From contig NC_057918.1 in assembly GCF_018873765.1 (NCBI RefSeq), positions 9,060,862 to 9,124,861 on the forward strand: DNA of 64,000 bases, written 5' to 3'. The DNA is from Telopea speciosissima (Eukaryota; Streptophyta; Magnoliopsida; Proteales; Proteaceae). The translations under genes and the position numbers were made by a program. Below the pieces are notes generated by a model. It was not told the DNA's origin, did no database searches, and saw only the letters and a program-made list of their open reading frames with translations. Positions 22,609-55,600 of the stretch are shown one piece after another; the first letter of the stretch is position 1, and each line of letters starts with the position of its first letter.

Positions 22609-24198
22609 TTAAGTCGAATTGGCAACCGATGAATCCTTGCCACAAACGAATCGGTTGCGAGTCCGACTCAGCGTCCCCGAGTCCAACAAGCCCTCCCAGT
22701 CCACCTCCTCCTCTCCCTCGCCCTGTTGGTCAATCCCAGTACCTCTCATCAACTGTAATACCCTCTTAGCCTTCTCCCTGGCTCGTTCGCTCCCTCTCTC
22801 TTCCACTTCTCTCAACACCTCCGCCGCTCCCGCCTCCTTCGCCAGCACTTTAAACCTCAAACTCCCTTGACTCAGCGCGTACAACGCCCCAACACAGTTT
22901 TCCCGAGCCGTTTCCGAGTTCAGCTTGTTTCCCCTCAACATCCCCACGAAGCATTCCACCGCGTTCGCGTCGAGCAATGCGCTCCGCCCCTCCGCACACG
23001 CCGCTAAGTTGCAGAGTATAAGCAGAGCCCTGCTCGCTAGGTCCCCTCCGTTTACCATGGCTAACAGCGTCGGCACAGAACCCAGCTTCACGAGTTTGGA
23101 ACGGTTGCTTTGAACCAGCGAGAGATGGTACAGAGCCATCGCCGAGTCGTGCCGAGCCCGCTCGCTCTCCGACCGGAGCATGTGGAGCAGCGGTGGTAAC
23201 GCACCTAATACACCTATGGCCATCTTGTTCTCATCGTCAAGAGCGAGGCTGAAGAGCGCACCCGCAGCGTGTTCCTGCGCTTCAGAGAACCCTCCCTTCA
23301 ACACATCGATCAATGGTGGAACGATCCCAGCCCGTACGATCTTTACCTTGTTGATCTTTTCCAACGAGAGATTCACCAGAGATGCCACCGCGTTTATCTG
23401 GATGACGGAGTAGCGTGAGTTCAGGAGAGATTTTAGCACCGAAAGCAATCGTGGGGTACAGAGTGGAACCCTCATATCTGCGTTGGTTCTGGTGATCTTT
23501 CTCAGTGAGATCACGGATTCCTCTTGTTCGAACACTTGTAAGCTCTTGAGCTTGACGACGATCTCCTCCTCTTCCGGGGACATTGGATTTAAGCTCTCGT
23601 CTGTAACATTGTCGGACGACGAAGAAGATGAATAACAAGAGGGCCGCGTTGCGAATGGTAAAGGTGTGCCGGGAGTCCCGATAATTACCGATTCCTCAGA
23701 GCTTGTGTAGAAGTGAGTCGGCCGGCGATTTAACTCGGTTGCTGCGTAAGAAAATTTGACTGGAGGCTTCTCCGCCACTCCTTTAAGCAACTCTTCCTTC
23801 TCTGTTTCTTCTTCTTCTTTTGTGCAATTGAGAGTTGATTTCTCAGGCGGTATTAGTGCACGAACAAGCTTCTCCGCGGAGCAGAGCTCTGGAGGTGTTG
23901 GCCGTTCAACACCATTAGTACGGCACCAGTTGAGAATAGTCGATTTAATGGCGATGTTAGGGATTACAGTAGAGAAATCAGGTTTTGAGCCATCTGGGAG
24001 TATTGGAGTAAACCCCAAGTCTTTACAAACCTGAACACAGATTCGCTCAATAGTATGCCCTGAAGCAACAATCACCGGATCCGCCATTAAAGACCCAGAA
24101 ATCGGACAGACGAATTCCTTTGGGGGCTCCTTCCATTCTGATTTTAACGCAGCTGGCCGGTACAGGAAGATCTTCCACCTGTGTTTACCGTTCCCCAT
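22609..24198 (-). CDS. U-box/ARM-repeat E3 ubiquitin ligase, PUB38/PUB40 type (copy A, intact)
   Basis: An intronless gene of 529 residues. A basic N-terminus (MGNGKHRWKIF) is followed by a U-box at about residues 24-98 (PPKEFVCPISGSLMADPVIV through the IKSTILNWC end). After an acidic/Ser-rich linker, ARM repeats occupy about residues 205-480, with the family signature INAVASLVNLSLEKINK. A conserved acidic tail (about EEEVDWEGLLDSG) closes the protein. The U-box binds the E2 and the ARM repeats recruit substrates, so this should be a cytosolic or nuclear E3 ligase. Arabidopsis relatives PUB38/39/40 act in brassinosteroid and stress signalling, but its substrate here is unknown. The start is the ATG at 24198; the frame opens upstream only on GTG. 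This copy lies at the left edge of the tandem duplication. Its partner at 44476-45786 lacks the U-box. Confidence 0.95.
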   Translation of the reverse strand: MGNGKHRWKIFLYRPAALKSEWKEPPKEFVCPISGSLMADPVIVASGHTIERICVQVCKDLGFTPILPDGSKPDFSTVIPNIAIKSTILNWCRTNGVERPTPPELCSAEKLVRALIPPEKSTLNCTKEEEETEKEELLKGVAEKPPVKFSYAATELNRRPTHFYTSSEESVIIGTPGTPLPFATRPSCYSSSSSSDNVTDESLNPMSPEEEEIVVKLKSLQVFEQEESVISLRKITRTNADMRVPLCTPRLLSVLKSLLNSRYSVIQINAVASLVNLSLEKINKVKIVRAGIVPPLIDVLKGGFSEAQEHAAGALFSLALDDENKMAIGVLGALPPLLHMLRSESERARHDSAMALYHLSLVQSNRSKLVKLGSVPTLLAMVNGGDLASRALLILCNLAACAEGRSALLDANAVECFVGMLRGNKLNSETARENCVGALYALSQGSLRFKVLAKEAGAAEVLREVEERGSERAREKAKRVLQLMRGTGIDQQGEGEEEVDWEGLLDSGTLSRTRNRFVCGKDSSVANST

Positions 24199-24773
24199 CT
24201 TAGTAGCTCTCACTAATCTCTCCTACACTCTTCAATCGTTCAAAGATGAAAGAACTAATTGTCCGGTTACTCACGAATTCGTAAAATAGAAATCTCATAT
24301 TTTTCGTCGTTCAAAACACCAAAAATCCAAACCAGACAATAGTCCGTGATCAGAAACCAGTAGTAGCCCTAGCCCTAGCCCTAGCTTCTGGAAGGGAAAT
24401 CCAGACATATTAACTCAAAAGGAGAGCCCATAGTTTAGAGACCAGGTCTTAGCTTGAATCTCAGTGGTTGCAGGTTTGCAGAGACAACGATTCTGGGACA
24501 GATAAAGAAGGGTTGGGGTTGCTTCGTGTAGCTTTTTTTTTCTCAGAGCTTACGAATAGCACAAAAGTTCAAAACAGATAAAATATAGAGATTACGTCTT
24601 CCGTCTCTTCGATGAGTTAGAGTTACAGATATTCCGAAAAAACAAACTTTACGGACGAGGTGGTTTCGGACTTGGGAATCTTTTATCTGCGGGGATTCAA
24701 TTTTCTTCAGTTCCAGGAATACCCTTCGTATGTGACAATTATAACGAACGTGACATGGAAAAGCTGAATGATA

Positions 24774-24787
24774 TTATTATATATAAG
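24774..24787 (-). promoter_or_regulatory. candidate TATA box of the PUB gene
   Basis: The minus strand reads CTTATATATAATAAT about 580 bp before the start codon, next to a conserved CCGCCCCTCGTGACT block. The duplicate gene has the same arrangement (CTATATATTAAT plus the same GC-rich block), though the DNA between is diverged. The distance implies a long leader, possibly with a leader intron. Conservation may also simply reflect shared descent. Confidence 0.5.
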
Positions 24788-24799
24788 ATCAGAGTCACG

Positions 24800-25443
24800 A
24801 GGGGCGGGGTCACGCCATGCTGTCTCGTTTTATGGGCCTACTTTTATAATATATGAATGCAGCCCATTTCCTTATCCAAAAAAAAGAAAAAAAAAAGAAA
24901 AGAAAATTTAGCCCATTTAAGACAGACTATATCATAAGCCTTTTATTAGGTGGCTCATTAATTTCTAATCACGTGGAGGATGATGTAGTAATTCTAATTG
25001 TTGGATAGATAGGTCTAAATTGGATTCGTTACATGTCAAATTTTAGAATTTAATTGAACCAAATATCATTTAATGTATTAGCACGAATTTTTGTGTTTTT
25101 CAGTCTATTGTATGTCTATGCTTTTTTTTGGCTAACAAAAGTTTCTGGACCTTCGGCTCGACTTGTCCCCTAGGCATGCACATACACCCCAATACACGTG
25201 CATTGGGTCAGCATTGGATCATATGAGAGTCATAAAACTTGTGGGGCTGACCCCAAGAGGGTGAGGGGAATCGGGGTGCAGTCTATGTTGTTATACAACT
25301 AAGTTGTATATCTCCATGCACTCTCTTGTAGTCCTTAGATTTTCAAAACAATATTTTAAGACTCGGACAAACTTTATTCTTTGGATGGACATGTCTAGAG
25401 TTGGATCAGCCATATGCCAAATTTCAAAACCTAATTTAATTAA
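24800..25443. other. intergenic DNA upstream of PUB copy A
   Basis: Contains the end of the block shared with copy B (to about 24.9 kb), then sequence without a counterpart there. GC-richer words at 25150-25300 suggest an old repeat that I cannot classify. No gene is seen. Confidence 0.4.
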
Positions 25444-25611
25444 GAGATAAAGAATGCCACCCGATGGCATAAGTACACGCCGCACACGAAATGACTGACA
25501 CATCCTTGGTCCTTTCAATCTTTTGAGGGGATACACCGATCATTTCACGTGCGACCTGTGTTTGACGCAGGTACACACCACGCTGCCCGACCAGGTGGCG
25601 TTCTTTCTCCC
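25444..25611. mobile_element. Mutator-type MITE with perfect 9-bp TSD
   Basis: A 168-bp element. The left end is GAGATAAAGAATGCCACCCG, and the reverse complement of the right end is GGGAGAAAGAACGCCACCTG. It is flanked on both sides by a perfect TTTAATTAA (25435-25443 and 25612-25620). The termini match the copy at 4212-4387, defining the first MITE subfamily in this window. The perfect duplication suggests it is younger than the other copies. Confidence 0.87.
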
Positions 25612-25909
25612 TTTAATTAAAACCCTCAGGTGTATTGACATACATTCTAGTATTTTTAAGCCGTCAAGTTGTATGCCATGCAATTTCCCATAGTTCTTAG
25701 ATTTTCAAAGTTTCATTTTGGCACTAGTCAATATTCGTTTGAGTTGAAAGTAGAGGGCAGTTCAGCAGTTTGTTTAGCACCAGGTCATAGTCTTTTCAAA
25801 ATCCAACACAGTAACTATATCCAATATTCGCAAAGTTTTAGAGCTACTTCAAAAATCAAACATTTTTTATAGCCTATTAGTCTACAAAGTAAAAGTACCC
25901 TCTAATGAT

Positions 25910-26155
25910 CATGGTTTGAGGTATCAGACATGGATCGGCCTTATTGGGCAATCTGTATTGGTATCGACACAGGCCAATCTTGATACCTGGTTGATCCCGT
26001 GTCAATGGAACGATATGGATCAAGGGTAAATTTATTAAAAACTCAATTTTTATGAAAAACCAGGGGCAAAAGTGTCTGATCCAGGCCAATCCATACCGGT
26101 ATCATCGATTTCCAAGATGACCAATCCCAATCCGACACCATGCATTTAAACCATG
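25910..26155. mobile_element. fold-back MITE-like element, GATCGG family
   Basis: The ends are inverted: CATGGTTTGAGGTATC on the left, and CATGGTTTAAATGCATGGTG as the reverse complement of the right. Subterminal GGATCGG and GGATTGGG words occur on both sides and a short AT-rich centre contains GGGGCAAAAGTGTC. The related copy at 2785-3010 shares the order. No target-site duplication was identified. Confidence 0.55.
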
Positions 26156-26159
26156 TCTA

Positions 26160-28165
26160 TGATCCATATATAGGATGCTCATTGAAAGTTTAAGTGGACC
26201 ATCTCATTAGTACTTTTGTTTACCTTTCTCTCACAATCTAATTCTCCTTTTGTTTAAACCCAATAAGTATTATTGCATCTCATCATTTGGGTTAACACAC
26301 AAATCAAGATCCCCAAGATTAGACTTAAAAGTGGGTGAAAGTGGAATTTTTCGTGTTTGAACCAGAGTAGTACTAGAATGGGTGACCACTCCTTGGAAAT
26401 CCTCGTGTTACACCCAATTTTTTTTATTTTATTTTTTTGGGTAAAAAGAAAAGAAAGTGAAATTTTTAAAGGGAAAAGAAAGAAGAAAAAGAAGATCAGA
26501 AGGAAAGATGGCGGCAGCAAAGCTTGATGGAGAAGGTGGATGATGCTAAGAGTTGGAGCATTTTCAGATGACCCAGTCTCTGTGAATTGACTGGTTCCTG
26601 AAGAACCACGAGGGGGTGTTGCTATTTGAAAGAGAAAAGAGAAAAGATTTCAAAAGAAAAAAGAAAAAAAGAAAAAGGTACAACGTTGAACATTCCTTTT
26701 AGATCCACTAACACCACTCAATAATTGAGAGTCATGTGTTAGGTATTTCCTTCTCTTTGTTTCTCTTTCACAGCTATGAAAGTATTCACTTAAAGTGATA
26801 CTAATATCTCTCCGAAATCGGTTGAATCGCCCGAATCGGTATCTCATATAGGGGCTAATCCACCCGATCCAATTTAGGGTGATCCGGATCAATATCAATA
26901 TCGATCTCGACCGATCCCAATTTGATTCTCAAGAACTAAAACCATATCATGACTACTGGCCCATTACTTAGCGGTTAAGGTAACTTATAAATTAGGTTTG
27001 GACTTGGTCTTCAATGGTGGGTCATCTATTGTTTCAGTCATGGGAGCACTTGGGCACTCCTTTTAGTCCATCTTTCACATCTTGAAAGCCACCTTTGCTT
27101 AGTTGTTGCTTTCGTCCATGGCTCCCACCTTAGTCTTATGTGCTTTAATTAGGTTAGTTTCTTTAATTTCTTCTTCTAAGTTCTAATGGGTAGTAAAGAA
27201 CTAGAAAAGTTGAGAATGATAGAAGCAAAATCATTAGTATCTGAAAATTAAACCTGGAAGACTCTTCCTCTCTTCCTCAATGTCATAATTTATCACACAG
27301 AATCATGCATTAAGCACACACACAAACAAATTAAAGTAGAGAATCAAATATGCTTTACGTTATCATTTCTTTGAAAAAGATTGTAAAAGAAAGTGCTTTT
27401 GCCTTTACATAAATCATATTAAATCAAAACCAAAAGCTAGCAATGAGAAGAGCAGTTAAGAGTCAAGAGAGAGCCAAGGTTACTAACAAATTATGAAGAA
27501 GCCATTAATGTATTTGTGAAGGTGCAGTTTGCTTAAAAAACTACTGCTTCCCTTCTGTTATATCTTCAGATTATAATATTGTAATTTTCCTTCCTCACAT
27601 GTCATAACCATACAAAGAAATGTTTAAAGTCCAAGTATCAAAAAACTCCAAAAAACAAAGACAGATAGACTGAAGCTGATCAGTTGGTACCAGTGATCTG
27701 ACAATGTATAGATAAATGGAGTAGGGTTGTAAAGTTCAGTCTTACAAGCAGTCACATGTTCCTTATATGTAGAAATGAATACCTACTACAATGTTGAAAT
27801 GATGGAAATTCCAATTGTAAACAAAGAATCACACTAACACAAAGATTTACGCGGTTCAGTAAGATTGTTTACGTCCATGGTGAGATGAAATTAGGTCTCT
27901 ACAAAGAATAATATCTCTACAAAATCATAGCAACTTTATATAAGTATAATTTACCGAAATACCCATATAACCTTTTGAAATCAACACACAAATGCAAGCG
28001 ATGAAATACAAGATATCATACCCCTAGCTCCTTACTACCTTTACAGGTTCAGGATTTAGTCTTCTATCATAGTTGTATTCCATCAGAAAAAACCTTCAGT
28101 ATTTCTCTTTTGGGTGATCAGAAACTTTAGTCTATCATAGGTTGTATTCCATCAATAGAAAACTT
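26160..28165. other. intergenic DNA, partly duplicated
   Basis: About 26.16-27.31 kb matches 47.28-48.04 kb in copy B, including an ATGGCGGCAGCAA block and a CCATGGCTCC block. A GATCGG-rich fragment at about 26812-26945 has no counterpart in B. From 27.31 kb the match ends. The word 'tttacgcggttcagtaag' at about 27850 resembles a sequence common in plant repeats, but I could not classify it. No gene is seen. Confidence 0.5.
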
Positions 28166-28320
28166 GAGGATGGATCTTTGTGCAACGGTTAGGTTGCTCC
28201 ATTGTGACCAAATGGTCAAGGGTTCAAATCTCTGGAAAATATTCTCTCAACGAAGCAGAGATAAGTCTGCGTACATTATGACCCTCCTCAAACCCTACAA
28301 TGATAGGAGCCTTAGTCTGA
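28166..28320 (+). mobile_element. Au SINE
   Basis: Matches the plant Au SINE in order: GTGCAACGGTTAGGTTGCTCC head, GGTCAAGGGTTCAAATC B-box region, then CTGCGTACATTATGACCCTC and the GGAGCC...end. The body is degraded relative to the copy at 54583. It lies in a part of copy A with no counterpart in copy B. Confidence 0.85.
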
Positions 28321-28439
28321 GATAGTCCAAGCTAAACCTAGAACACTATTTCAGTCCCGTGGTTAGGTCCTATGATTAATCAGAACCGTACGTTGGTTTT
28401 GACCAAACATTTTCTCATTTGGGCACATGTCCAAAAAGA

Positions 28440-28580
28440 TGGACTAACTCAACCATTTGCTGTATTATATATATTCATGCAGTACTACTTTTCAATAGTT
28501 AAAGGGTTTTTGGACTAACTCAACCATTTGCTATATTATATATACCCATGCAGTACTTTCCAATAGTTAAAGGGTTTTTT
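28440..28580. repeat. two-copy tandem repeat, about 71-bp unit
   Basis: The unit beginning TGGACTAACTCAACCATTTG and ending TTCAATAGTTAAAGGGTTTT is present twice in a row with a few differences. There is no coding content. Confidence 0.85.
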
Positions 28581-29039
28581 TTTTAAATAAAAATCTCACC
28601 TTGACCTCTAATGCCTATCTATGAGTAAATATGGATTCATAAATAGGATCAACTACATAATTCTTCTTTTGCTATTCATCAACTATGCTTAAAGCTATGT
28701 TTAATATAAATTTGGAACTTTCATATAAATGATAAAAGACTCTTAGTCAAAGAGGCCAAACTATTATCCTATTTCTAAACAAAAATTTCCATCATTTCAT
28801 TACATTTGAAAATGAAAATTTTCATCAAACTTATGAGTCATAGTTTGTTATTTGATTTCACAATACAACAGTTGCAATATGACGGGCAGGATTAAGTGCT
28901 TGCTTTAGAGTAGGTTTTACTTCTTGTAACCACGGTTGGTTACATCGATCCTGTAACAATTCTGTTAAGATCAACGTATACAATGGGGAACTATGGGTAT
29001 TTTTAGTAATAAAAATTTCAATCTCATAATGATCTTTTG

Positions 29040-29135
29040 TCTTTGTGTAATCGGGCGGTCCCGGTGTGGGGTCTTAACCCGTCGAGCACCCGACCGGACC
29101 GACCGAATGCTAGCCCGGCCTTATTTGCTAGTTTT
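29040..29135. repeat. GC-rich dispersed repeat fragment
   Basis: Contains GGGCGGTCCCGGTGTGGGGT and AGCCCGGCC words. A similar stretch, GAGCGGTCACGGTGCAGGTT, occurs at 30590-30720, on the other side of the inserted LINE. The right one ends GGTTGACACCCCTAAT, resembling hAT-type termini. They may be halves or two copies of one element. Confidence 0.4.
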
Positions 29136-29448
29136 GAAACCTTGTGAACTGAATATTTATAAATTTTAGTCGCATGTTTAGTCTTTAGATGATCGATCCG
29201 GTTTTAACTTTATATGGGTCTTGAATATTTTCACCTCTTGGTTGATGGATTAGGTTTTTAATACACATATATGTTATAATATGTTCTCACTCACTCTCAT
29301 ATCAAAACTGATGCAGTAGCTTGATCCCTTGTAGCATGAGTAAGCCCACAAGACATTGGACTTTAATTGATACTTTGATTAACTTATTTACCCATATTTT
29401 GAGGACCACATGATTAGGATTTTTTTTCCCACTATGATCAAAACTAAT

Positions 29449-30511
29449 CCCCTATAACAATTGGGTTACATCAAGGATCAGCTCTAAGCCCCTATTTGTT
29501 TGCACTTATAATGGATGATTTAACCAGGCACATTCAAGATGAGGTCCCTTGGTGTATGCTTTTTGCTGATGATATTGTTTTGATGGATAAGACAGTGGAA
29601 GGGATTAATGCAAAGCTAGAGTTATGGAGATCAAACTTGGAATCGCGAGGCTTTAAGCTAAGCAGAACAAAGACAGAGTATTTGATGTGTAACTTCAGTC
29701 AAACCAGGAGAGGTGATGAAGTGGTGAAACTTGAGGAGCGAGCGCTACCACAAAGTGAATGCTTTAGATACTTGGGGTCAACCATTAACAAAGAGGGTGA
29801 TATAGAGGATGATGTTTCCCACAGAATTAAAGTAAGATGGATGAAGTGGAGAGGTGCATTGGGAGTGTTATGTGACAAACGCATGCCTATTAAGCTTAAA
29901 GGAAAATTATATAGGACAGTTATAAGACCAGTCATGACTTATGGAGCAGAATGTTGGGCAGTTAGGAAGAGTAATATAGATAAGATGAGTGTAGCAGAGA
30001 TGAGGATGTTGAGGAGGATGTGTAGCAAGACCAGGAGAGATAGAATAAGGAATGATTGTATTAGAAACAAATTGGGAGTTGCACCAATCCAGGACAAGCT
30101 TCGTGAGAGCTGCTTGAGGTGGTATGGTCATGTCCAACGGAGACGTATGGATGCACCGGTAAGGAAGAGTAACCGGATTCAGTTTGACGGAGCTAAAAGA
30201 GGTAGGGGCAGGCCTAAGATGACTATTGGAGAAGTGGTAAGAAAGGATATGAATGTGGTAGGGCTCAATCCTAGTATGACCGTAGATAGAGTTGTTTGGA
30301 GGACTAGGACCCATGTAGCCGACCCCTTGTAGGGGAATGTTCATGGGATGCTGTTTTGACCTTTTTTTCCTTTACTTATTTTCTATTCTTCTCTCTTTTA
30401 CTTCTTGTACTTCTTTTTACTTCTCGTATTTCTTTTACTATCATAGCCTCTTCGGATCCATGTAGCCGACCCCATTTAGTTGGGATAAGGTTATGGTTGT
30501 TGTTGTTGTTG
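29449..30511 (+). mobile_element. RTE-type LINE, 5'-truncated
   Basis: A 1.06-kb insertion bounded by a perfect 14-bp target-site duplication, TGATCAAAACTAAT, at 29435-29448 and 30512-30525. It starts inside the reverse transcriptase (GLHQGSALSPYLFALIMDD) and ends with the family 3' end and a GTT tail. The reading frame to 30332 is open. Confidence 0.95.
29457..30332 (+). pseudogene. C-terminal part of RTE LINE reverse transcriptase
   Basis: An open frame of about 290 codons begins at the LINE truncation point. It shows motif B (GLHQGSALSPYLF), the catalytic motif C as LFADDIVLM with both aspartates present, then FRYLGSTI and the thumb and C-terminal region with RWYGHVQRR. The N-terminal endonuclease and first RT motifs are missing because the element was truncated on insertion, so it cannot act. 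The open frame suggests a fairly recent insertion. Confidence 0.9.
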
Positions 30512-30589
30512 TGATCAAAACTAATAAACCTAAGAAACGAGGAAGAAATTGTTTATTCTATTACTCTTAATCTGTTAAAGCCCGTTTAG

Positions 30590-30720
30590 AGTTAAACATG
30601 CCCGACCAGGCCCAGCCCGAAGACATAAACGAGCGGTCACGGTGCAGGTTTTAAGCACCGTGAGGCCCGGCTAGGCCCGACCAAACCCAACCGAGTCCAA
30701 CCGGTTGACACCCCTAATGT
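30590..30720. repeat. GC-rich dispersed repeat fragment with hAT-like end
   Basis: Rich in GGCCCGGC and CCCGACCA words and ending CCGGTTGACACCCCTAAT, which resembles the TAGGGGTGTCAA terminus of many plant hAT-type MITEs. The other terminus was not found. Confidence 0.4.
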
Positions 30721-30852
30721 TCATACTTCATACTTTAAAATTAGTATACAACCTTTTTAGGACTTCTCACATTGTTAGTCTCAAAACGCCTAAGAAACAC
30801 CACGGAAACACTTGAAGCTATGAAACTTGGAACCTAAAATCGTTTATACATG

Positions 30853-31208
30853 GTACAACAACAACAATTCAGCCTTATTCCAACTAAATAGGGCCAGCTA
30901 CATGTATCCTTACCCTCAACCAGCTCTTTTAAAAATATACATGATACAAGACCTAAGCTTTGCATGTCTTACCTCACCACCTCTCCAAAAGTCATCTAGG
31001 TCTGCCTTTGGCTCTTTTGGCTCTTTCAATCTGAATCAAATCATTCCTTCTAGAGTATCTAAAAACCTCCGTTATACATGGCCATGCCTCCTCAAAAGAC
31101 TTTCTCATAGCTTATCAGGTATCTGAGCTACTCCTGAATCAGTTCTAATTTGATCATTCCTTTATCCTTCCTAGATTTACCAGACATCCATCTCAACTTG
31201 ATCGTTTT
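30853..31208 (-). mobile_element. RTE-type LINE, 5'-truncated
   Basis: The 3' end and GTT tail lie at 30853 on the minus strand, followed by the family 3' UTR and a degraded piece of the C-terminal reverse-transcriptase region. The right border is estimated from where similarity to the copy at 38100-38560 stops. Confidence 0.75.
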
Positions 31209-32035
31209 GCAAGGGACCTTCATTCTCTTGATCTTTTGATTATTGATGTTGTAAGCCTACCAGTACTCTTAGAGAATTCAATCACCAGAAGTCTTCTAGC
31301 AAACGTCCAGCTTAGAACTAATGGATACAAAGTTACAAGCCCTATAGAACAGATCCTGTTCAATTAAAGTCATGGCAAGACATCCAGCTTGAAGCTCATA
31401 CCAGTTAATAGGCTATGTTAGCAAAAGAATAAGGGCAGGCGAAGATGTGACAGTTTCCAGTTTCAAGTTTTCTGTCATTTCCTCATTTCCCCTCTTTTGC
31501 ACCATAAAACAAGTGGGTTCTTGAGAAGTGAGTTTATTATGCCGTCAGGCCCGTCACAAAAATATTATGCATGACATTAGGGTGAACTTGCTCCCATGAT
31601 AACACAAAACAAATGATTAAGCAGACTATATCTACTCAAATCTCTTTGAACTGAAGGAATTAATTTCAATGTGGTCCGAAAGGCAATTAAATAATCTAAT
31701 TTCTTCATCCTAGATTTAAAGCAAAAGTGGGAAAATCCCAGTAAAGCAAGATTCAATACCATTTTCTCATTGTACATCTCCACATAACTTACCCCAGGTC
31801 TATCAGCAGGTTAGCTCTCAAATTCCGTTGAAGCTGGAAGGATTCAATCATCTCTCAGTTAGCTCACGGGCACCACCATCAATTTGAGATGAAAAGCCAA
31901 TGGTGATAAATCTGATATGGAGGTTGGTCATAGAATAGCACAATGCCCCCTATGCGCTGCAATCTAAGTTCTACTAGTCCAAGGTGGTTGTTTGGAATGA
32001 GGCATGACAGCAAGAAGAATTTTCTTTTTCGGACC

Positions 32036-33698
32036 CTGAAATCACAGCCCTCATGAGCAAAGAACACCTAACTCATTTCATACAAGGATGGCAATGAATA
32101 TGACAATAACAACAAATTATTTCATGACACCTAACAGAATAAGGTCCTAGAGGCACCACTGACATAGTACCTTTAATTAAGATAGTGAAAAATGAACAAG
32201 GCATAGTGGATGGATAAGACCAATTATCTACCACTTCCATATTCCAAAAATACTAACCATCTTGTATCAAGGTTACTCCAATGGAATATCAACTTTGTCA
32301 AGCATTTAACAAACACTTCCAGAGGGGGTGGGGGAAGTCAGATAAAAACAAGAAGTTAATATAATTTTAGATCCCCACCCTTTTTCTCCTTTCCAGTGAA
32401 CACCGGTGTTTTGCTAAATGGAACAGCCACGGAAATGGTCTGAGCTGTCGATTGACATCTCAATGGCCCAGGTGGTGTCCAGAGCATTTCAGGAACGTTG
32501 CACTGCCAGACATTTAAAAAAATTATTCATTTGAAGTCAGTAGAAGGGACATCGTAAAAAGGGAAAATAGGGAGGAAGTGGAGTAAGTGTAATGATGTAA
32601 AAAGGGGAAAGAGTGAAGAAGTGGAGAAAGGGTGAAGTGTTATCTAAAAAATTAAAATGAACATATATACAGAAAGGAGACGTGGAGCTGGTCTCTGTCC
32701 CTTCTTCCTTTCCCTAAGAGGGTTTGGGAGAGAGAAAAAACAGAAATGGGAAGAGTCTCCACCTCCGATTTCGACATGGACAGAGTCCATATCAGTGAGC
32801 TTCTTCTAGGGTGCGCAGGGACACACACACACACACACAAACACACAAAGAGAGAAAGAGAGAGAGCAACCTGCAGCCAAGAGTAAGGGTTCTACATGAG
32901 TTAACATACCAACATTTGTAAAGTGTCCCAGCCAACCCAAAGTTCCAAATGGGAAAAATGGACGTCCTGGAAATTTTTCAATGAAGCTGTGGCTTTCAAA
33001 GCACATTCACCAGGTAACAAACCAGTAATCCTCATGTGCATTGTCTAATAATAATGAAAGAACAACAACAATGACAACCACATTATAAAATTATATATAA
33101 GGGCAAAGTCTCCCTGGATGGTCTATCGTGAGAAGCCTCTCTCATGATAGCCCATGTTCCTGCCACATGGCATTTCCATTGGTGCTCAAATTTCATGGAT
33201 CAGTTATCCTCATCATCATTCTATGACCCTGGTAACTTTCAGCCCAACGCATCGAGATATAAAGATCAAGCAACAACTTAAAAATTCAACTCTAGTAGTT
33301 TTATTTCAACTGTTGAAAATACAGTACAAAAAATTCAATACAATTAAGGCCAAAAGGTTGATATGTGACCCCAAATTTGATATATAACCACCAGCTAATC
33401 CACAGGATGTACAAGCCATCCAACAGTGGGTCCCAATGACCCAACATCACTGTCATGAGAAGTTTCCATATAATAAACGAAGTGGAGTTCTTTTTCCTAG
33501 TATGAGTTATCATTATAAAAATTGATATTGGCATTTAAAGTTTGAAAAACAAATAAATAGAAAACTTCCAAAACATAATACAAGCAGCAAGCACATTAGA
33601 GATGCAAACAGAAAAAACAAATTGGATTCACATCCAAACACAAAAGTAACTTTATTCAGAAATTTATAGTAAAGACAATGGATTGAATGCAATAATAC
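32036..33698. other. SAM copy A intron and repeats
   Basis: Intronic sequence of the SAM pseudogene. It matches copy B (49.7-51.5 kb) in blocks, but lacks the 230-bp tandem duplication and the G-run found there. A (CA)n(GA)n-like tract lies at 32821-32866. No gene is seen. Confidence 0.6.
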
Positions 33699-34890: not shown

Positions 34891-35073
34891 AAATCCAACC
34901 TATCCAATGACTATGTATCTCAGATCAACTGCTCACAATAATAGCAACTGAGGATCAGTTTTAGAAATTAACAGTAGCCATAAAATCCAACCAATCCAAT
35001 GACTATGTATCTCAGATCAACTGCTCACAATAATAGCAACTGAGGATCAGTTTTAGAAACTAACAGCAGCCAT
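34891..35073. repeat. two-copy 91-bp tandem repeat
   Basis: The block running from AAAATCCAAC through CAATGACTATGTATCTCAG to CAGTAGCCAT is repeated at once with only a few differences. The corresponding place in copy B (about 52.3 kb) has a single, shortened version, so the repeat arose, or was lost, after the segmental duplication. Confidence 0.9.
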
Positions 35074-43287: not shown

Positions 43288-44033
43288 TTCCCCAGCCCGA
43301 AAGAAGAGGATATAGCATATTTCCCCAGACCAAGTGAATGTAGAAGGCTATCAACAGTAGTATGTGGTTCCTAGCCCTACACAAAACCAAACCAAAAGGG
43401 CAAAGGCAAACATAAATGAACCAGTTTAAATCCTACGGGAACAATAGTAGTTGTAGATTTTTTTCAACAAATGAGTGACTTTGTAACCAATCAGCATTCA
43501 AAACATTCACCGAATTAGATCATCTAAGGATCAAATGCAACTAGAGAGTTAAATTAAAAAAATGCACCACTAATGGTCAAAAGCAACCAACAGTTTCAGA
43601 AGATAGCATAATTGTTGCATCAGGCATTAACAGTTTGCAGTCAAACGATATGCATTAGACTCCATGCAACACAAAAATTTACCTGATTTTTCATCATAGC
43701 ATTGATCACCAGTAACAGTTAACTGCAATTACAATCCTTGAGAATAAATATTTGTTCTCTGAATAGAAATTAACATGTAATCATGTACATGTTAAAACTG
43801 CGCAGGTTTTCTCAGACCCACAATATAGCTAAGAGTTGCATTTGTTCCATTGAGAAAAATAATGAGTAAAAAGTATTTCCAATTAATACCATCACAAACA
43901 CTCCTACAGTTCCTGAACCAGCAATGCTCTGGAAGCTGGAGCTAATGTTATATCTATATTGTTCTGCACGAATGACTTTCTTAAACAATATTCATCACAA
44001 AGACTGCCATACAAGGATGATAACTCAAATGAA

Positions 44034-44561
44034 TGTAGAAGGCTAGCAACAGTAGTATGTGGTTCCTCATCCTACACAAAACAAAACCTAAAGGGCAAAC
44101 GTAAATGAACCAGTTTAAATCCTACAGGAACAATAGCAGTTGTAGACTTTGTCAACAAACAAGTGACTTTGTACCAATCAGCATTCAACAATCACTGAAT
44201 TAGATCATCAAACGATCAAAAGCAACTAGATAGTTAAATTCAAAAAATGCACCTCTCTAAGGGTAAAAAATAACTAATAGTTTCAGGGGAATGCGAAATT
44301 GATCCATCAGGCCTAACAGTTGGGAGCCAGAAGATATGCATTAGACTCCATGCAACAAAAATGTACCTGATTTGCATCATAGCATTGATCACCGGTAACA
44401 GACTAACAGTTACTATAATTACAATCTTTAAGAACAAATTTTTGTTCTCTGCACAGAAATTAACATGTAACCATGTTAATCCTGTGCAGGTTTTCTCAGA
44501 CCCACAACATAACCAAGAGTTACATTCTTTCCGTCAAGAAAAATTACGGTCATATAAGCAT
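44034..44561. repeat. local tandem duplication of the SAM exon 5 region
   Basis: Repeats about 43340-43870: part of the SAM-start exon (GAGGAACCACATACTACTG on the minus strand) and the intron next to it. The preceding copy extends about 160 bp further into the intron (to the equivalent of about 55717 in copy B) than this one (55561). Confidence 0.8.
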
Positions 44562-45786: not shown

Positions 45787-46183
45787 CTTTAATATCTCTC
45801 CCTAATCTCTCCTACGTTCTTCGAGAATTCAGAGATTAACGAAGTACTTGTCCGGTTTCTCAAGAATTCGTAATATAGAAATCCCATCTTTGTCGTCGTT
45901 CGTAAACCAAACAAACCAAACCAGACAATAGTCAATTAACAGACACCAGTACTAGCAGTAGCTCCGGCAAGGGAAATCCAGACATATTAACACGGAGAGA
46001 GAGAGAGATGATAGAATTACTGTCGAACAAGTCTTAGCTTGACTCTACCTGCTTGCAGATTTGCAGAGACTGAGATTCTGCGCGACAAGATAAAAAGAGA
46101 AGCTTTCTTTACTCTAGTTTTGCTTACGAACGATGGCCCACAAGTAACAAACAGAAAAGAGATTACGATTCGGTCTTGGCTGA

Positions 46184-46195
46184 ATTAATATATAG
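46184..46195 (-). promoter_or_regulatory. candidate TATA box of the U-box-less PUB copy
   Basis: The minus strand reads CTATATATTAAT about 400 bp before the start codon, beside a GC-rich block CCGCCCCTCGTGACT that is also present upstream of the intact PUB gene. The upstream region was duplicated along with the gene, so this copy may be transcribed. Confidence 0.45.
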
Positions 46196-46419
46196 ATCAC
46201 ATCACAGTCACGAGGGGCGGTGGGGGCCGGGGCCACGCCTGACGCTGTCTACTCTCGTTATGGGGCCCTGCTTTTATAAATATGAATTTAGTCCATTCTC
46301 GGGTTTGGGCCGGTATGGTGTTGAAACGATACTAATATGGATTGGTTTGGGATCGATGGTTAAATAGGCTTGGGTTTGGTTCATAGTATTTTTTGGACAA
46401 TAAATTTAAGGAGCTTATG

Positions 46420-46582
46420 AGGGTAGGTTTTGGTGCAACGGTAAAAATTGCTCCATTGTGATTAAAAGTGGTCACAAGTTCGAGTCTAAAAATAGTGAAA
46501 GATGGGGTAAAGCTACGTACATTATAACCCTCCTTAGATCTTGCAGAGGCAGAAATCTCGTGCACTGGATACGCCCTTTTAG
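46420..46582 (+). mobile_element. Au SINE with perfect 16-bp TSD
   Basis: The Au SINE order is complete: GGTGCAACGGTAAAAATTGC head, GTCACAAGTTCGAGTC B-box region, CTACGTACATTATAACCCTC and the CTCGTGCACTGGATACGCCC end. The duplication ATTTAAGGAGCTTATG flanks it at 46404-46419 and 46583-46598. It is specific to copy B. Confidence 0.95.
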
Positions 46583-46599
46583 ATTTAAGGAGCTTATGC

Positions 46600-46670
46600 A
46601 ACTCCTTGCGTCTATATAAAAAAGGGTGGGCTAGCCTCATTTTTCAGTCATTCCAATCTCATTTTGGATA

Positions 46671-46704
<34 letters not shown>

Positions 46705-49633
46705 AATATTTGGTTTTTGGATTCGTCGAGAGCAGTTTTCTTCATCTCGGAAAGATCAAAAGAGTAGTACAACACTTATATGATTATCCTCGAAGATTGT
46801 TTTATCATGGAGATAGAATCACAAGATCTCCAAAGTGCATTAATAAGGAATGTTTACTACTACCTTAAGGAGAATACTATTTCTTGCATGACTCAACTTT
46901 ACACCATTGATTCCGAATTCATTGAAAATTGATTTATTTACTTGAAATCAATTTCTCTACTTGAAGATTGGTTCATTAATTGAAAACTACTCACTCGATG
47001 TTTTGTTCATTGTTTCACTCACCTTAAGTGGATACGTCTCTTACATGAATTAAGTTTTATATTCTCATCTTTACTATTCAAGCATATTAGTTACTACAAG
47101 ACTCAAGTGACATATATGTTGAAAGTAGAGGGCACTTCAGCAGTTTGTTTAGTCTCAGTAAGCCATAAACTTTTCAAAATCCAACACAGTAACTACTGCT
47201 ATAAGTTTCGGATTTACTTGTACCACAACAAATATCAAACTCTTCTTCATCCTAATCCACAAAGTTTAAAAGAGACTTCTATGATCCATTGGATGCTCAA
47301 TTAAAAGTTTAAGTGGACCATCTCATTAGTGGTTTAGCTCACCTTTCTGTCACAATCCATATTCTCCATTTGTAAAGATGAGGATCCCAAGATTACACAG
47401 ACTTACACAGTATGTGAAAGTGGAATTTTCAAAGAGAAATGAAGGAAGAAAAAAGGAGATCAGAAGGAAACATGGCGGCAGCAACGCATGATTATGATCT
47501 GTGAATGACTAGTTCCTGAGAAAACGATGGGAGTTGTTATTTGAAAGGGAAAAAAAAAGAGAAGAGTCCAAAAGAGAAAAGTGAACGTTGAACATTCCAC
47601 TTTTAGATCCACTAACACCACTCAATTATTGAGACTCTTGTGTTTCTTGTATCCTTCCCTCTTTGTTAATTTGTCTTTCATATACGATATTAATTGGCTG
47701 TGAGAGTAGTCACTTAAAGTGATACTAATCCATCCCCACAAGATGATCGCTAATGGTCCATTACTTACCTTTCAATCATACGGGACTATGGGAGCACTTG
47801 TGTCCTCCTTTTAGCCCATCTATCACATCCTGAAAGCCACCTTTGCTTAGTTGTTGCTGTCGTCCATGGCTCCTCGTTAGCTGTCTCTGCTTAATTAGAT
47901 TAGTTAAGTTTCTTTAATTTCTTCTTCAAATTCTAATGGGTAGGAAAGAACTAGAAAAGGAAATCATAGGTATCTTAAAGACATGGAAGACTCTTCATCT
48001 CTTCCTCAATCTCGTAATATATCACATATATAGACTCATACATGGTATGATCTGTGATTAGGTTTTACGTCCATAAAAAATGATAACATGGGGGCATCTT
48101 GATCCATGTGTGACAATTTTATTTGATAAATATTAAAGTTATAGCCACTTGATCAACTAGACCAAGTGGGAGAATGTTAAAAATTTTCCAAGTGGTAAAA
48201 ACACACACAAGAGTTTCGTCTTTGGTTCAATTATGAGTATATTTAAAGATCTTGTAAGAATGTCTTCCTATGATAGATTAGAAGGCATAAGGCTATATAT
48301 AAGACTGGTCACTACCCTAGTGATAACTGATAACGCTGCAACTATAGAAGTCTCACATCTATTTTGCAATCAGATTTCGGTTACGATCGTGAGTTTAGCT
48401 TATCAGCGTTCATTTCCATGGCTTCGGGTACACATTTTATAATTTGTTTTAATTTATTATACGTATTTTTTGTTTTTTAATTTACAGGCTTTTAATGGCG
48501 GCCCTTCAAAGGCAACCCACAACCTAGTCCACAAAATACAAGACATCAACCCTCAACAAAGTGATGAAATCAAAATGTCCACACGCTTGGAACGCAATTC
48601 ATATTGCCATGAGACAATTGCAGACTTATTGTTGCAAGAGGTTTAACCTAGGTAGGCGAAGAGTCTAACAACATGGGATAATGATCAGAAGCAAAAGAAG
48701 TTCAAGATGACAGGGTGGCATATGGCCAATGAAATATCCAAGTTGGACTTACCCATACACCGATCCAAGCATTCCTTAATTAATGTAAGGGGTTTTGTTC
48801 ATTTGATGAAGTGAAATCCGACCCTTGAATACTTGTACTGAGCAAACCCAAGAAGCAAATAACTCCCCTAAAGAAGGTAAACCTTGCTGTAATGACTCAA
48901 TACATAGAGCAGATGCTATCAACCCTATAAACCAAAACGACTGGTATTCTCATCAAAAAATAAGACTCAGATTCAGGTGAGGCATCCATGCCAATATATT
49001 AGATATGGGTCCGGATTGATTTCAAATCTGATAGCTACAATCAAACCATTCCTATGTCAAATCTAAAATTGTTTCCCAGAAACAATTGTAACGCTAAGCT
49101 AAATGTGCCTGCCTTGTACCTTTTATATTTTTATTATAGCAGTTGCAAGCCTACTGGTACTCTTAGAGAAATTAATCACCAAAACTATTCTGGCAAACAT
49201 TCTAACTTAGAACTTGTGGATAGAAAAGATCAGAACTATTGAAGTTCATAGTAATATTATGCATCGCATTAGGGTGGACTTGTTCTCAAGATAACAGAAA
49301 GCAAATAAATAAGCAGACCATATCTACTCAAAATCTCTTTGAACTGAAGGAATTAATTTTAATGAGGTACGATAGGCAATTAACCAATCTAATTTCTACA
49401 TCCTAGATTTTAAGCAAAAGTGGGAAAATCCCAGTAAAACATGATGCAATAATATTTCCACATTGTACATCTCCAATTCCATTGAAGCTGGAAGGATTCA
49501 ATCACCTCGCAGTTGGCTACGGGGCACCGCCGTCACTTTGAGATGAAAAGCTACTGGCGTTAAATCTGATATGGAGGTTCTTGATCTGGTTGCTGATCTT
49601 AGAAAAGAACAATGCTTCTCTATGTGCTGCAAT
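46600..49633. other. intergenic DNA of copy B
   Basis: A (CT)n tract lies at 46670-46705. 47.1-48.04 kb and 49.14 kb onward match copy A. 46.6-47.1 and 48.04-49.14 kb do not, and I cannot classify them. No gene is recognised before the last SAM exon at 49634. Confidence 0.5.
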
Positions 49634-52600
49634 CTAAGTTCTACTAGTCCAAGGTTGTCGTTTGGAACGAGGCATAACAGCAAGAAGAATCTTCTTTCTC
49701 GGACCCTGAAATCACAGCCCTCGTAAGAAAAGGACACTTAACTCATTTCAAATGAGGATGACAATGAAAAGGACAATAACAACAAATTATTTCATGATCA
49801 TAACAGAATGGCCAAGAAGGCACCACTGAGATACTACCTTTAATTAAGATAATGACAAATGAACAAAACATGGTTAATACAAATTATCTACCACTTCCAC
49901 TTTCCATACATTCTCACCATATAGTATCAAGGTTGTTACTCCAATGGGGTGGGGGAGTTAAGATAAAAACAAGAAGTCGATAGAATTTTAGATCCCCTCC
50001 TCCTTTTCACATTTTCAGTGAACACCAGTGTATTGCTAAATGGAACAGCCACAAAAACAGTCTGGGCTGTCGTTCAACGTTCAAATGTCCCGGATGGTGT
50101 CCAGAGCGTTTCAGGAACGTTCCACAGCCAAACATTTAAAAAATCACTACTTACGGTGTCCAGAGCGTGTACACACACATGAAAAGGGACATGTGAAGTT
50201 GGTCTCTGTCCCTTTTCTTATCCAAGGAGGGTTTGGGAAGATTGAAACAGTCTCCACCCCCAATTCCAACGTGGACAGAGTCACACACACACACACACAC
50301 AGATCCTTACTGTTACAGGTAACCAATGTTTCTGCTCTCAGACTTCATGGAGAGGGAGAAACAGGGGAGAGAGGTTCAAATGATACAGAGAGAGAGAGCA
50401 ACCCAGAACCCAGGATAAGGGTTCTAAACGAGTAAATGAGCAACCCAGCCAACCCAAAGTTCCAACTGGGAAAAATGGGCGTCCTGGAAAGAAGAATCCA
50501 TTTTTCAAGGGAAATCTGCACTGATTCAATTCCGGGACGGTGAGGCCTGGTGACCGGCCTTCGAGCGTCCCGGATGCATCCGGGTAAGTTGAGGTAGTCA
50601 CATTCACATACCCATACTTTTCTACTAAAATCCAAGTAATTTGGTGAAAATAAAAAATATATGGGGAATAATACACTAAATTCAAGTGTGCTTTGTGTGT
50701 GTGTGGTGCCCTGGAAAGAAGAATCCATTTTTCAAGGGAAAGCTGCACTGATTCAATTCCAGGACGGTGGGGCTTGGTGACCGGCCTCCCAAGAGTCCCG
50801 GATGCATCCGGGTAAGTTGAGGTAATCATATTCACATACCCATACTTTTCTACTAAAATCCAAGTAATTTGGTGGAAATAAAAAATATAAGGGGAAATAA
50901 TAACACTCAATTCAAGTGCACACAAAGGTAATCACATTCATACAAGGAGAAATAATAACAATCAATTCAAGTGCCTTTGTATGTTGGGGGGGGGGGGGGG
51001 GGAGAGGGGGTTGAGGGTAAAATTTTTCAATGGAGCAGTGGTTTTGAAAGCTCATTCACCAGGTAACAAATCAGTACTAATCCTCATGTGCATTGTATAG
51101 TAAGTTTTAGCCCAGTCTGAATTTTCTGCATAGAGATATAAAGATCGAGTAACTGGTTAAAAATTCAACTCCAGTAGTAGTTTTATTTCAACTGTACCAA
51201 ATACAAGAGAAAAGATTCAATAAAATTTGGGCCATAAGATTTATATAGGACCCCAAATTTAACATGTAGCCAGTAGCTAATCCACAGGGTGAGAAGTTTT
51301 CATATAGTCCACGAAGTGGAGTTCTTTTTCCTCATAACAGTATCATTATAGAAATTGATATTGGCATTTAAAGTTTGAAAAAAAAAAACAGATAGAAAAC
51401 TTCAAAAACATAATACAAGCAGCAAGCACATTAGACAATGCAAACAGAAAACACAAATTGGATTCACAACCAAACACAAAAGTAACTTTATTCAGAAATT
51501 TATAGTAGAGACAATGAATTGAATGCAATAGTACCATGGGTATTCCCAGATCTTTGAGGTCATTGTCCCCCATCTGCCTCAATGCAGTCATGTCCACCTG
51601 TAGATTAATAAATGCTCAGTGCCAACCACAATTGGAAACAACAAAGACAAGTGTTCACTTACTGCAAAGTACCTGAATTTCAGCAGATATTGCAAAAAAA
51701 TTGGCCCAGTTCTATTTTCTGACCTATCATAACTAAGGCCTTGATATTAATACCATACAATGTCCTTTTGTTTCTTCACTAGTCTATCCTTTAAATATCC
51801 AAGTTGAAATAATTTTCTCAACTGAATGCATAGTGGTAGATGTGTCTATAGTCTATATTTCTGTCATATCCCTAACAATCAGCCAAGTATTTCATGATAA
51901 TAAGAATAAGATTCAGTGTCAGATGAGCCTCATTTAATAGATTAGTTACATAAAAATCAACTTGAAAAGACGAACCTAACCATTATTCCCTGAGGCCATT
52001 TGAACAGCCAAAAGACAGTTTCAGTGGAGTTCAATTAGAATTCATTTGAGTCAGATTTGACAAAGTAAATACTCTACTTTACGTGAGAACCAAATGGTGT
52101 GACAGCCAGGGATAACCTGAAACTCTGGTCAACAGCAACGGACTAGCAACGGGGGAAGATGCGCATCAAATAGAAGCACAAGAAGCATGCGGAAGCCAAG
52201 GATAAGGAAACAGATTATGGTAGATTTCAGAATCCTACCTACAAGTCTACAACAGAATCGTATGGCTCACAACCAGCAAGATATCACCACACAATCAAAC
52301 CAATCCAATGGCTATATATCTCAGATCAAGAGAACCCAGAAACAGAGGTGCCACAGCTCTTGTTTAGTTGCAGGAAACCAAAGATATTTTTGTAACTGTT
52401 ATGCCCTTATCAAGGGTAGTGAACCACTTTAATGAACCACCAGAATAGCAATATAACAGCAGTGAAGAAACTGAATGAAAACTTAGTAAAACTTAATGGA
52501 TATTGCATACTAAGGTAGAATAAAATAGAGTAGATAACGAAAGATATGTCTCGAGTTTCCCACTCAAGCCTGGGCTCAATGGAACTTCATGGCTGGTCCT

Positions 52601-55600
52601 TTGGGGTCTAAAGGCTGGCTGTCTTGATCGGTCTTTCTTCTTCTCTTCTGCCTTATCTATGTCATAAAGCATACCCAGACAACCACATCCAGGCTTCCTA
52701 AACACCTTTTAAATTTCAAATAATTCCCCCAAACAATCAAGAAAATACTCCACTATCATAAATTGAATTAGAATGGGTATACGTTGATTCTTTGACTCCT
52801 AACCAACTAAGAGGAAGCAATACATATATGCCTACTTTAGTTCAGTTGCATGCAATAAAATTAACCTTAGAGGAAGCAATACCATGGAAACAGAAACATA
52901 TATGCCTACTTTAGTTCAGTTGCATGCAACAAAATTATCCTTATTAAAAAATGTGGGTTCCATAACCTCAGACTTTATGCTCAGCACCACCGCTCAACCA
53001 CATATCCTGATACCTTTAAAGTATAAACTTTTCTGAGATTCTAGACCTGGGGGGAAATCCTGCTCTTGAGGGCTGAGATGCTCTCCACATATCATAACTA
53101 CAGAACATGAAAGCATGTAGTCTACCCTACATCCTACAAGGTTCGAGATTTTGCCAAGATTTCAGGAAATCTCACAAAATATTTCGGTTTCAACAAGTGT
53201 CGAAATGAAACAGCATGCAATACTCAAGAATGTCCAGATTTCTTTTGGTCATACATTTTGTTTCGCCGAAATTTCGGGCAAAACATTAATTTGCTTTTAT
53301 AATAAAAGCAAAGTATCGAACGATTCGTCATGTTTTTCTAGGGATGAGGGAAAAGCCTAGTATTTGTAATTTCTTGACCAAATCACTATTGTACAAGGTT
53401 GGAACAAGTACTTGAGAAGTAGAGGAAAGCATTGGAAACAATGATTTGCTGCTTTGTTTGAAGATTTATAGGACTGTTGTGGAGGACTTCGAACGTCTCT
53501 TCTGTCATACTATAACATGGCCAGCTTTTGTGATACAGTCAGAGGATAACTTGACTTGGCAGCAGCAATAACAACATTCTAGCGGTTTTGATCCTACCCG
53601 AAACTCGATGTGGTACTAGGACTCTAGGATGGGCAGAGGGGCGACTTGCTTGTATTGTTGACCATGGTATATGCAATTGACAACATTGTTATGAACCATT
53701 ATGATGTATGATTTATGAAATGCTTTATAATTTTATGTCTATTCATACATAATGCATATTTAAGTTGTTTTACTTGAATTACATGTGTTCTAGTACTAAA
53801 AATTGTGTGGAATACGCCATATTAGAGAATGTTACAGCATACACTACCAACCTACGGTACGAAATCAAACTATCATTTGGGTGTGAATTTTTTAAAATCT
53901 AAGGGTTCTACCATGTTTAGAGGGCGGCCTAAAATAGGGTTTCATAGAAATTTTGGGAACTAATTTGGCCATTTGGGCCTCGAAACCCTTCATCGAAATT
54001 GCTGGTGAAAATGTACAGGTTTCGACCAAAATTAAAGTTTTGGCTAAAATATTTCAGTTCCGAGCCTGGTCAAAATCTAGAACCTAGCATCAACCTATCC
54101 TACCTCAGCAAGACATGTTTGCTTACGCAACAATTCAGGATCGATAATTATCCAATAGAACCCTTGTCATTAATAAACTTCATAATAGTCTAGTTCAGGC
54201 GCATCAACAGTCATTGATTATTTGATCAACCAGGCCTTTCATATCATATATTAACCAACTGGCATGCATACTAATCAGGTAATCTTGACTAGAAGATCAA
54301 CTAGCACCAAATCATTAGTTCACTAAGTATCAACCATTACTCATGCATTTTCTAAACCATAAATAACAATTCACTTTCATGCTCCCATTACATATATGTA
54401 ATTTTCATTCATTTGTCGTATTTCTTCTCTTGGGAGTGAATAAACAAATTACAGGATAAAGGTGCAGGCACAATAATGAAACAGGGTGCTGAACTTGAAT
54501 AATCCCAAAAAAAAAACAGGATTTGAGGTATCAGAGGTATATATATAATTTATTTTTAAAAAATATTAGCAATTTTCATTATTAGTTCGAGTCTGGAAAC
54601 AGCCTCTTTACAAAAGCAGGGATAAGGCTGCGAACATTATGACCCTCCCCAGACCCTGCAGTGGCGGGAGCCTTGTGCACTGGGTACGCCTTTTTTAGAA
54701 AAATATTTATATAAGCATTATTAAATAAATCAAATTAAAGTAAATATTAAATTAACCAGTCCCAGAAATGAAACATCTAATAAATGTTTTATTACTAGAA
54801 AGAAAGATTTCAATGGTCTATTCAACAATACATGTATCGTATATAAACATAAAGTGAGAAAGTCAAATTCCATGGAGAGGGAGTGCCCAGCCCTGGAGCC
54901 CAGGACCAACTGCAGAGGGAAAGCAAGAGTCTCGTCAGCAAGACGGGTACGCCTTCCCCCACCCACCCCCCCCCCCCCAAAAAAAAAAAAAAATGAAGAT
55001 GGTATAAAAAGGCCCTCCTTGCTCAACAAGCACTAACTAACTTGTCTCCAACGGTATCAGGTCACATACATCTTACGTCCTGGAAAGGTAAAGTGCATGA
55101 TACTTACTTCTTCAGCCCGAAAGAGGATACAATATTTGTCCAGACCAAGTGAATGTAGAAGGCTAGCAACAGTAGTATGTGGTTCCTCGCTCTACACAAA
55201 ACCAAACCAAAAGGGCAAACATAAATGAACCAGTTTAAATCCTATGGGAACAATAGTAGTTGTAGATTTTTTCAACAAATGAGTGACTTTGTAACCAATC
55301 TGCATTCAACATTTACTGAATTAGATCATCTAAGGATCAAATGCAACTAGAGAGGTAAATTCAAAAAATGCACCTCTCTAATGGTCAAAGGCATCCTAAC
55401 AGTTTCATGGGATAGCAAAAATTGGTCCATCAGGCATGAAAAGTTTGCAGTCAAACAATATGCGTTAGACTCCATGTAACACAAAAATTGACCTGATTTT
55501 GCATCATAGCATTGATCACCAGTAACAGTTCCATTGAGAAAATAACGATAATATATGCATGAGTAAAATGAATTTCCAATTAATACATCACAAACACTCA

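Follow-up and report, generated by a model that had tools for sequence, protein, structure and literature searches.

A truncated tandem copy of a PUB gene in Telopea speciosissima is most likely a functional ARM-only protein

We analysed a window of 64,000 nucleotides (the whole stretch considered here, C3:9,060,862-9,124,861, contig NC_057918.1) of the 823-Mb genome of Telopea speciosissima, in which the genes are of plant type. The window contains two adjacent direct tandem copies, A and B (Table 1), of a pair of neighbouring genes: a PUB gene, which codes for a U-box and armadillo (ARM) repeats, and a gene with a sterile alpha motif (SAM). On the minus strand the gene order is SAM-B, PUB-B, SAM-A, PUB-A. 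PUB-B is a partial duplicate of a full PUB gene in the same genome, and its U-box is absent. Since the ratio of nonsynonymous to synonymous substitution rates (omega) is 0.15 in its ARM region, against 0.91 in dispersed fragments of the gene, and since its reading frame has been kept, PUB-B is most likely a functional ARM-only protein. The full course of events that we favour, and that we regard as probable, comprises a tandem duplication, a later patch of copy A at a stretch called X1, and retention of PUB-B as an ARM-only protein. The single-copy comparison rests on a segment of the same genome, C8:9,940,225-9,998,385, which is collinear with the reverse strand of the window over about 58 kb; all analyses concern this one genome. 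The C8 segment has a single SAM and a single PUB gene, and thus the single-copy state was taken as older and its SAM-PUB unit as the likely ancestral order. We infer that the segment is a homeologue that arose by genome or segment duplication.

The ARM families PF25598 and PF00514 scored above the cut-off in both PUB-A and PUB-B. In the profile search a U-box match was present in PUB-A and none was found in PUB-B, so PUB-B was not classed as an E3 ligase; its matches were of the ARM type, plus one weak HEAT match. The missing U-box region measures 216 base pairs (bp), a length taken from the ends of the chained alignment blocks and from the alignment of PUB-A with PUB-B. PUB-A itself presumably belongs to the Arabidopsis PUB38-41 group. 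The new tail of PUB-B begins after KRIL at residue 408. Several designed ARM proteins in PDB align to PUB-B from about residue 150 to residues 408-411, that is, up to the junction, and the repeat domain therefore appears complete. The best-scoring PDB chain was Vac8, with its best stretch at 176-313. The first-pass annotation of this DNA had described copy B as a 3'-truncated PUB gene with an intact SAM gene. PUB-B is indeed truncated and SAM-B is apparently intact, but PUB-B is not merely broken, given the in-frame loss of the U-box and the purifying selection on its ARM repeats.

When the changes were polarised by the PUB gene of C8, 30 nonsynonymous and 35 synonymous changes fell on the B branch, 12 and 24 of them in the ARM part; 13 of the 118 differences between PUB-A and PUB-B are not polarisable, and neither sequence carries a stop. 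A three-taxon maximum-likelihood codon model gave a B-branch omega of 0.307 over all 397 shared codons and 0.153 over the 281 codons of the ARM region, and omega = 1 was rejected in both cases (p=3.3e-5 and p=2.0e-6, respectively); for the ARM region an interval of about 0.07-0.31 was read off the likelihood profile. The frame of PUB-B stays open at 436 codons despite a synonymous divergence (dS) of 0.25 to PUB-A. Neither the 216-bp deletion nor any of the three indels in the PUB block shifts the frame, whereas 80 of the 94 indels in the other A-B blocks (5,439 bases) would do so; if half of the indels fell on B, about 8.6 frame-changing ones would be expected on the B side of the PUB block, where there are none. 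Simulations of PUB-B at 0.10-0.15 neutral changes per site produced 3.4-4.8 stops (3.8-1.2% of runs were stop-free), against 0 observed. By our own division, the synonymous count of the B branch corresponds to about 0.12 changes per site.

At least 35 places in the genome match PUB, including PUB-A, PUB-B and the C8 gene, and 15 dispersed fragments were taken as a control. At least one in-frame stop was present in 13 of the 15, and a frame-changing gap in four. A branch model was fitted to 177 codons with nine ARM fragments, eight of them with a stop (L038 and L039 are near-identical), and stop-holding codons were treated as missing data. Omega was 0.91 on the terminal branches of the fragments (p=0.64 against 1), 0.14 on PUB-B and 0.20 on the other branches. 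An omega of PUB-B equal to that of the fragments was rejected (p=4.2e-4), while one equal to that of the other branches was not (p=0.49). Statistically, these sequence comparisons show the ARM repeats of PUB-B to have been under purifying selection as strong as that on the full-length genes, over the whole branch since the duplication. Recent conversion of the ARM part of PUB-B by PUB-A was rejected as a source of this conservation, because PUB-A and PUB-B are evenly diverged, with a dS of 0.258 for the linker and 0.2485 for the ARM part.

Several points weigh against a functional PUB-B. It is without its own 3' end and its former downstream sequence. Its N-terminal linker (116 codons) has an omega of 0.742, and relaxation of the linker is read solely from omega = 1 not being rejected there (p=0.52). 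At 0.06 neutral changes per site 2.1 stops would be expected, and 11.7% of runs were stop-free. The B branch starts at the duplication, and part of the constraint may predate the loss of the U-box. The tree of the branch model was fixed from the same data, its fit was stopped at 60 iterations with convergence unchecked, and selection was compared within one genome. A competitor or decoy role for PUB-B is proposed by analogy. Pairwise omega between PUB-A and five stop-bearing fragments was 0.23-0.38, and pooled pairwise omega among the fragments was 0.56 in the ARM part and 0.80 in the N-terminal part, below 1 even for dead copies. Because dead fragments yield such low values, plain pairwise omega is untrustworthy here and the branch model, which alone separates PUB-B from them, was used instead.

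The linker omega of 0.74, the lost catalytic domain and 3' end, and the low pairwise omega of dead fragments would suit a decaying pseudogene, whose open frame is due to luck or is a relic of a recent loss of the U-box. Nevertheless, we consider a pseudogene unlikely. The ARM omega of 0.15, for which omega = 1 was rejected, differs in the branch model from that of dispersed fragments of the same gene, and PUB-B is free of stops and frame-changing indels, whereas nearly all of the fragments examined (13/15) bear at least one in-frame stop.

A functional ARM-only PUB-B would be expected to bind the partners of PUB-A without ubiquitin transfer and could thus act as a competitor, a stabiliser or a decoy, as suggested by barley HvARM1 and by an engineered PUB13 ARM domain. 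HvARM1, from the Triticeae, is a partial duplicate of HvPUB15 that has 442 residues and contains ARM repeats only. It is reported to be under purifying selection in the ARM region and at the very N-terminus and neutral elsewhere, to contribute to mildew resistance and to have interaction partners in common with HvPUB15; roles as an antagonist or a decoy are considered in the same study (Rajaraman et al. 2018, PMC6092874). On these reported features PUB-B is like HvARM1 in being a U-box-less, ARM-only partial PUB duplicate (436 and 442 residues) with its ARM repeats under purifying selection and most of the remainder neutral. In contrast, HvARM1 is non-tandem and its parent PUB has 831 residues, while PUB-B is in tandem with a parent of 529 residues; the separate in-frame U-box deletion and the tail from the intron of a neighbouring gene also set PUB-B apart. 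Furthermore, HvARM1 is constrained at the very N-terminus as well and its functions have been tested, whereas that of PUB-B is putative.

On its own, the engineered ARM domain of PUB13 is reported to act as a dominant negative that hampers ubiquitination of the target, both in vitro and in planta (Zhou et al. 2015, PMC4449551). Like PUB-B it is an ARM domain without a U-box, but it is a laboratory construct and not a natural gene. SINAT6, a natural protein without catalytic activity, is described as a competitor of its active E3 paralogues (review, PMC11864678), and differs from PUB-B in that a truncated RING rather than a U-box is concerned. Surveys of other lineages report that tandem duplications yield chimeric genes in Drosophila yakuba (PMC5460883) and that 90% of gene pairs among Oryza fusion genes have strong signals of purifying selection (PMC9199173). 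As at this locus, intragenic duplication or fusion builds new gene structures in them; their abstracts name no PUB-SAM case. Among the matches listed in the open-access literature, HvARM1 was the only clear precedent for a U-box-less or partial PUB gene, and none reported a PUB-SAM duplication.

ARM-only partial PUB duplicates are thus already known as a kind. PUB-B matches HvARM1 in size, content and selection pattern but came by another route from a shorter PUB, and is most likely an independent parallel. More tentatively, PUB-B may be a second case in which an ARM-only antagonist of a U-box ligase has evolved naturally and independently, in tandem with its parent and with a tail from a neighbouring intron; this is possible, but we would not yet count on it. 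If it is true, plants would repeatedly evolve 'headless' ligases via partial duplication, each time with the ARM repeats kept and the linker free to change. Loss of a catalytic head with the binding domain retained, as in HvARM1, may recur, and PUB-A and PUB-B form a testable competitor/target pair. Truncated tandem copies are easily mistaken for pseudogenes; here one genome offers the intact parent, a relative in single copy and numerous dead fragments, which allows retained function to be distinguished from decay.

The duplication itself was traced by self-BLAST and a chained A-B alignment. A single A-B diagonal, with order and orientation preserved, runs from 22,754/44,561 to 44,028/55,718; the best self-BLAST E-value was 0.0, which excludes a chance origin of the match. 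The chain consists of 23 collinear blocks, with 1,171 aligned bases in PUB and 5,439 elsewhere. The first-pass annotation had claimed that blocks of copy A recur in copy B in the same order and orientation and had looked to a continuous diagonal; the blocks do recur, and the diagonal is interrupted by mainly A-only sequence at 27,298-31,227 (1.1 kb in B) and 37,578-42,901 (10 bases in B). Its proposal of a tandem duplication with one border in the PUB coding sequence and the other in a SAM intron was also borne out, including by the single-copy C8 segment.

At the junction, which had been placed near 44,561 and proved right within 1-2 bases, the SAM intron is joined to the PUB coding region. 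The TG at 44,562-44,563 corresponds to PUB-A 22,754-22,755 and to the SAM intron of copy B, which ends GCATG at 55,561 (PUB-A, CAACTGTAATACCCTC; junction, AAGCATGTAAGATCCTC; SAM intron B, ATGCATGAGTAAAATG). The earlier suggestion of non-homologous joining, made from 1-3 shared bases, is supported by the 2 bp seen. Such an overlap fits end joining or template switching with almost no homology; homologous recombination between long border repeats was rejected, because the overlap is only 2 bp. In the course of events that we favour, an ancestral minus-strand SAM-PUB pair was duplicated in tandem, as the sequence and the C8 comparison show, when a break in the SAM intron was joined, at the 2 shared bp, to one close to where the PUB coding sequence ends. 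SAM-B and PUB-A came out complete, while SAM-A lacked its 5' exons and decayed. PUB-B lost its U-box through the in-frame 216-bp deletion and takes its last 28 codons from the SAM intron. At some time after the duplication, as divergence and sequence suggest, the SAM end of copy A was probably patched from copy B, the copying having overrun the old breakpoint and rejoined at a short match.

The single tandem duplication to which the whole arrangement had first been ascribed does not account for that patch. In the self-BLAST, copy A 43,862-44,028 matches B 55,559-55,718, which lies past the breakpoint at B 55,561. Since copy A holds sequence from beyond the breakpoint, a simple single-event duplication is insufficient and was rejected, and the X1/X2 patch needs a second event. 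X1 is followed in copy A by X2, in which part of the intron occurs once more. The remaining A-B blocks beyond 24,250 have 564 differences in 4,515 sites (12.5%), whereas X1 and B differ at 43 of 599 (7.2%; p=9e-5); X2 and B differ at 48 of 352 sites, consistent with the other blocks (p=0.51). Thus, X1 is probably a later copy from B and X2 the original end of copy A. Over the 352 shared columns the divergence was 6.8% for X1-B, 12.8% for X1-X2 and 13.6% for X2-B, and with C8 as outgroup the informative sites joined X1 with B nine times, X2 with B once and X1 with X2 never. The letters are ACTCAAATGAATGTAGAAGG at the X1-X2 join, ACTCAATGTAGAAAC at the B tail and ACCAAGTGAATGTAGAAGG at the X1 start. 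The switch at the rejoin probably took place at the shared CAA, with AATGTAGAA nearby in both parents; AATGTAGAA itself was set aside as the rejoin site, because the letters fit a switch at the adjacent CAA better.

Alternatively, one complex template-switching event might have given both the duplication and the X1-X2 repeat, and X1 and B might later have been homogenised by gene conversion. The divergences of X1-X2 and X2-B (12.8% and 13.6%) both match the age of the duplication, and short matches are found at both joins. However, a separate conversion is required, whereas copying and rejoining covers both with one, and we hold a complex event to be rather unlikely. It is still more doubtful that X2 goes back to a tandem repeat of some 695 bp that existed before the large duplication, with the breakpoint inside it and one unit later lost from B. 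X2 does branch outside X1 and B at the informative sites (nine, one and none, as above), and there are the short matches at the X1-X2 join (CAA, with AATGTAGAA near in both parents). Yet the 7.2% between X1 and B would then be the age of the duplication, against 12.5% in the other A-B blocks beyond 24,250, and this course would need one more loss in B and, even so, a conversion. A later patch from copy B thus remains our preferred explanation of X1. The SAM intron of copy B is without about 130 bp at window 55530-55559, which are retained in X1, X2 and, with gaps, C8.

Over 397 codons of PUB, copies A and B have a dS of 0.251, and A and C8 one of 0.466, which would put the duplication at about half the age of the C3/C8 split. 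In the A-B blocks beyond 24,250 the mean over 5,114 sites is 0.129 substitutions per site. An assembly artefact, in which a haplotig or mis-join gave a false second copy, is very improbable: the junction is read from the assembled sequence, but a divergence of about 0.13 in those blocks together with a PUB dS of 0.25 is in our judgement above allelic expectation, on which ground a haplotig or assembly duplicate was rejected, and each copy has private sequence.

Table 1. Features of the tandem duplication, in positions of the window
Feature	Position	Strand	Description
PUB-A	22609..24198	-	Intact gene with U-box and ARM repeats; a single open frame of 529 codons and a stop
PUB-B	44476..45786	-	436-codon ARM-only frame; 216-bp U-box region deleted in frame; final 48 residues of PUB-A replaced by a 28-residue tail
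PUB-B tail	44476..44563	-	28 codons plus stop from the SAM intron; first codon includes the shared TG
Duplication junction	44562..44563		SAM intron fused to PUB coding sequence; 2-bp TG common to both parents
Copy A	22754..44561		21.8 kb; expansion chiefly at 27,298-31,227 and 37,578-42,901
Copy B	44562..55561		11.0 kb
X1	43267..44028		SAM intron/exon stretch, closer to B than the rest of copy A; right part, 43,862-44,028, equals B beyond the breakpoint
X2	44026..44561		Probable original end of the copy A SAM intron; follows X1 at a short match
SAM-B	49634..57339	-	Apparently intact sterile alpha motif gene; borders approximate, from sequence
SAM-B, SAM-domain exons	~55,108-55,190; 51,535-51,597; 49,634-49,705	-	Last exon with stop
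SAM-B, upstream conserved exons	~55,990-56,577; 56,671-56,727; 56,955-57,098; 57,271-57,339	-	
SAM-A	31964..43381	-	5'-less remnant; only three SAM-domain exons found; borders approximate

In SAM-B all three SAM-domain exons have open frames; translated as one, they match Pfam SAM_1 (PF00536, E=4e-15). Where splice sites were checked, the second of these exons has an AG acceptor and a GT donor, and the last an AG acceptor. Upstream of these, SAM-B has at least the four conserved exons listed in Table 1. A whole-genome scan with PF07647 found seven places and none at this locus, presumably because the domain is split across three exons. In SAM-A, two of the three exons carry frame-changing insertions (+5 and +11 bases) that are absent from C8 and B. 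The description of copy A as an intact PUB gene with a 5'-less SAM gene thus holds, and SAM-A is also frameshifted. The A branch of SAM has seven nonsynonymous and two synonymous substitutions and the B branch three of each, with two unresolved, numbers that are too few to use; two gapped codons were omitted from this count.

Among the dispersed PUB fragments, those of the ARM region (L008 and L037-L044) lie on C1, C2, C4, C5, C9 and C11 and group with PUB-A, not with PUB-B (support 91). The same three pieces (codons ~261-394, 441-474 and 492-506 of PUB-A) occur in five of the nine, and the other four were retrieved around one piece. The U-box end of PUB is held by two Pack-MULE-like elements (MULE, Mutator-like element), at L005 623-2546 and L007 944-2827, with terminal inverted repeats starting GGGTTTTTTACA and 9-bp target duplications (AAATAAATA and AATTTTTAA). 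Their PUB pieces are 94% and 93% identical to PUB-A, and each carries a stop. L006 holds the same piece, with no target duplication at the ends tried. Rfam gave no matches across window 20-58 kb. A MULE-like element at window 18478-20367 has ends that resemble those of L004, with 16 of 20 terminal bases inverted; its flanks are alike at eight of nine bases but A-rich, and thus there is no clear target duplication. L004 984-2690 is itself element-like; its terminal repeat (10 of 12 terminal bases) is unlike that of the Pack-MULE-like elements, and it has a 9-bp target duplication and bears a longer piece of the U-box-end region of PUB. Within copy A, a reverse-transcriptase frame (PF00078) lies at window 29448-30332, in a stretch without a counterpart block in copy B. 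Copy B has an internal repeat of its own, a 228-bp unit present 1.9 times at window 50483-50918.

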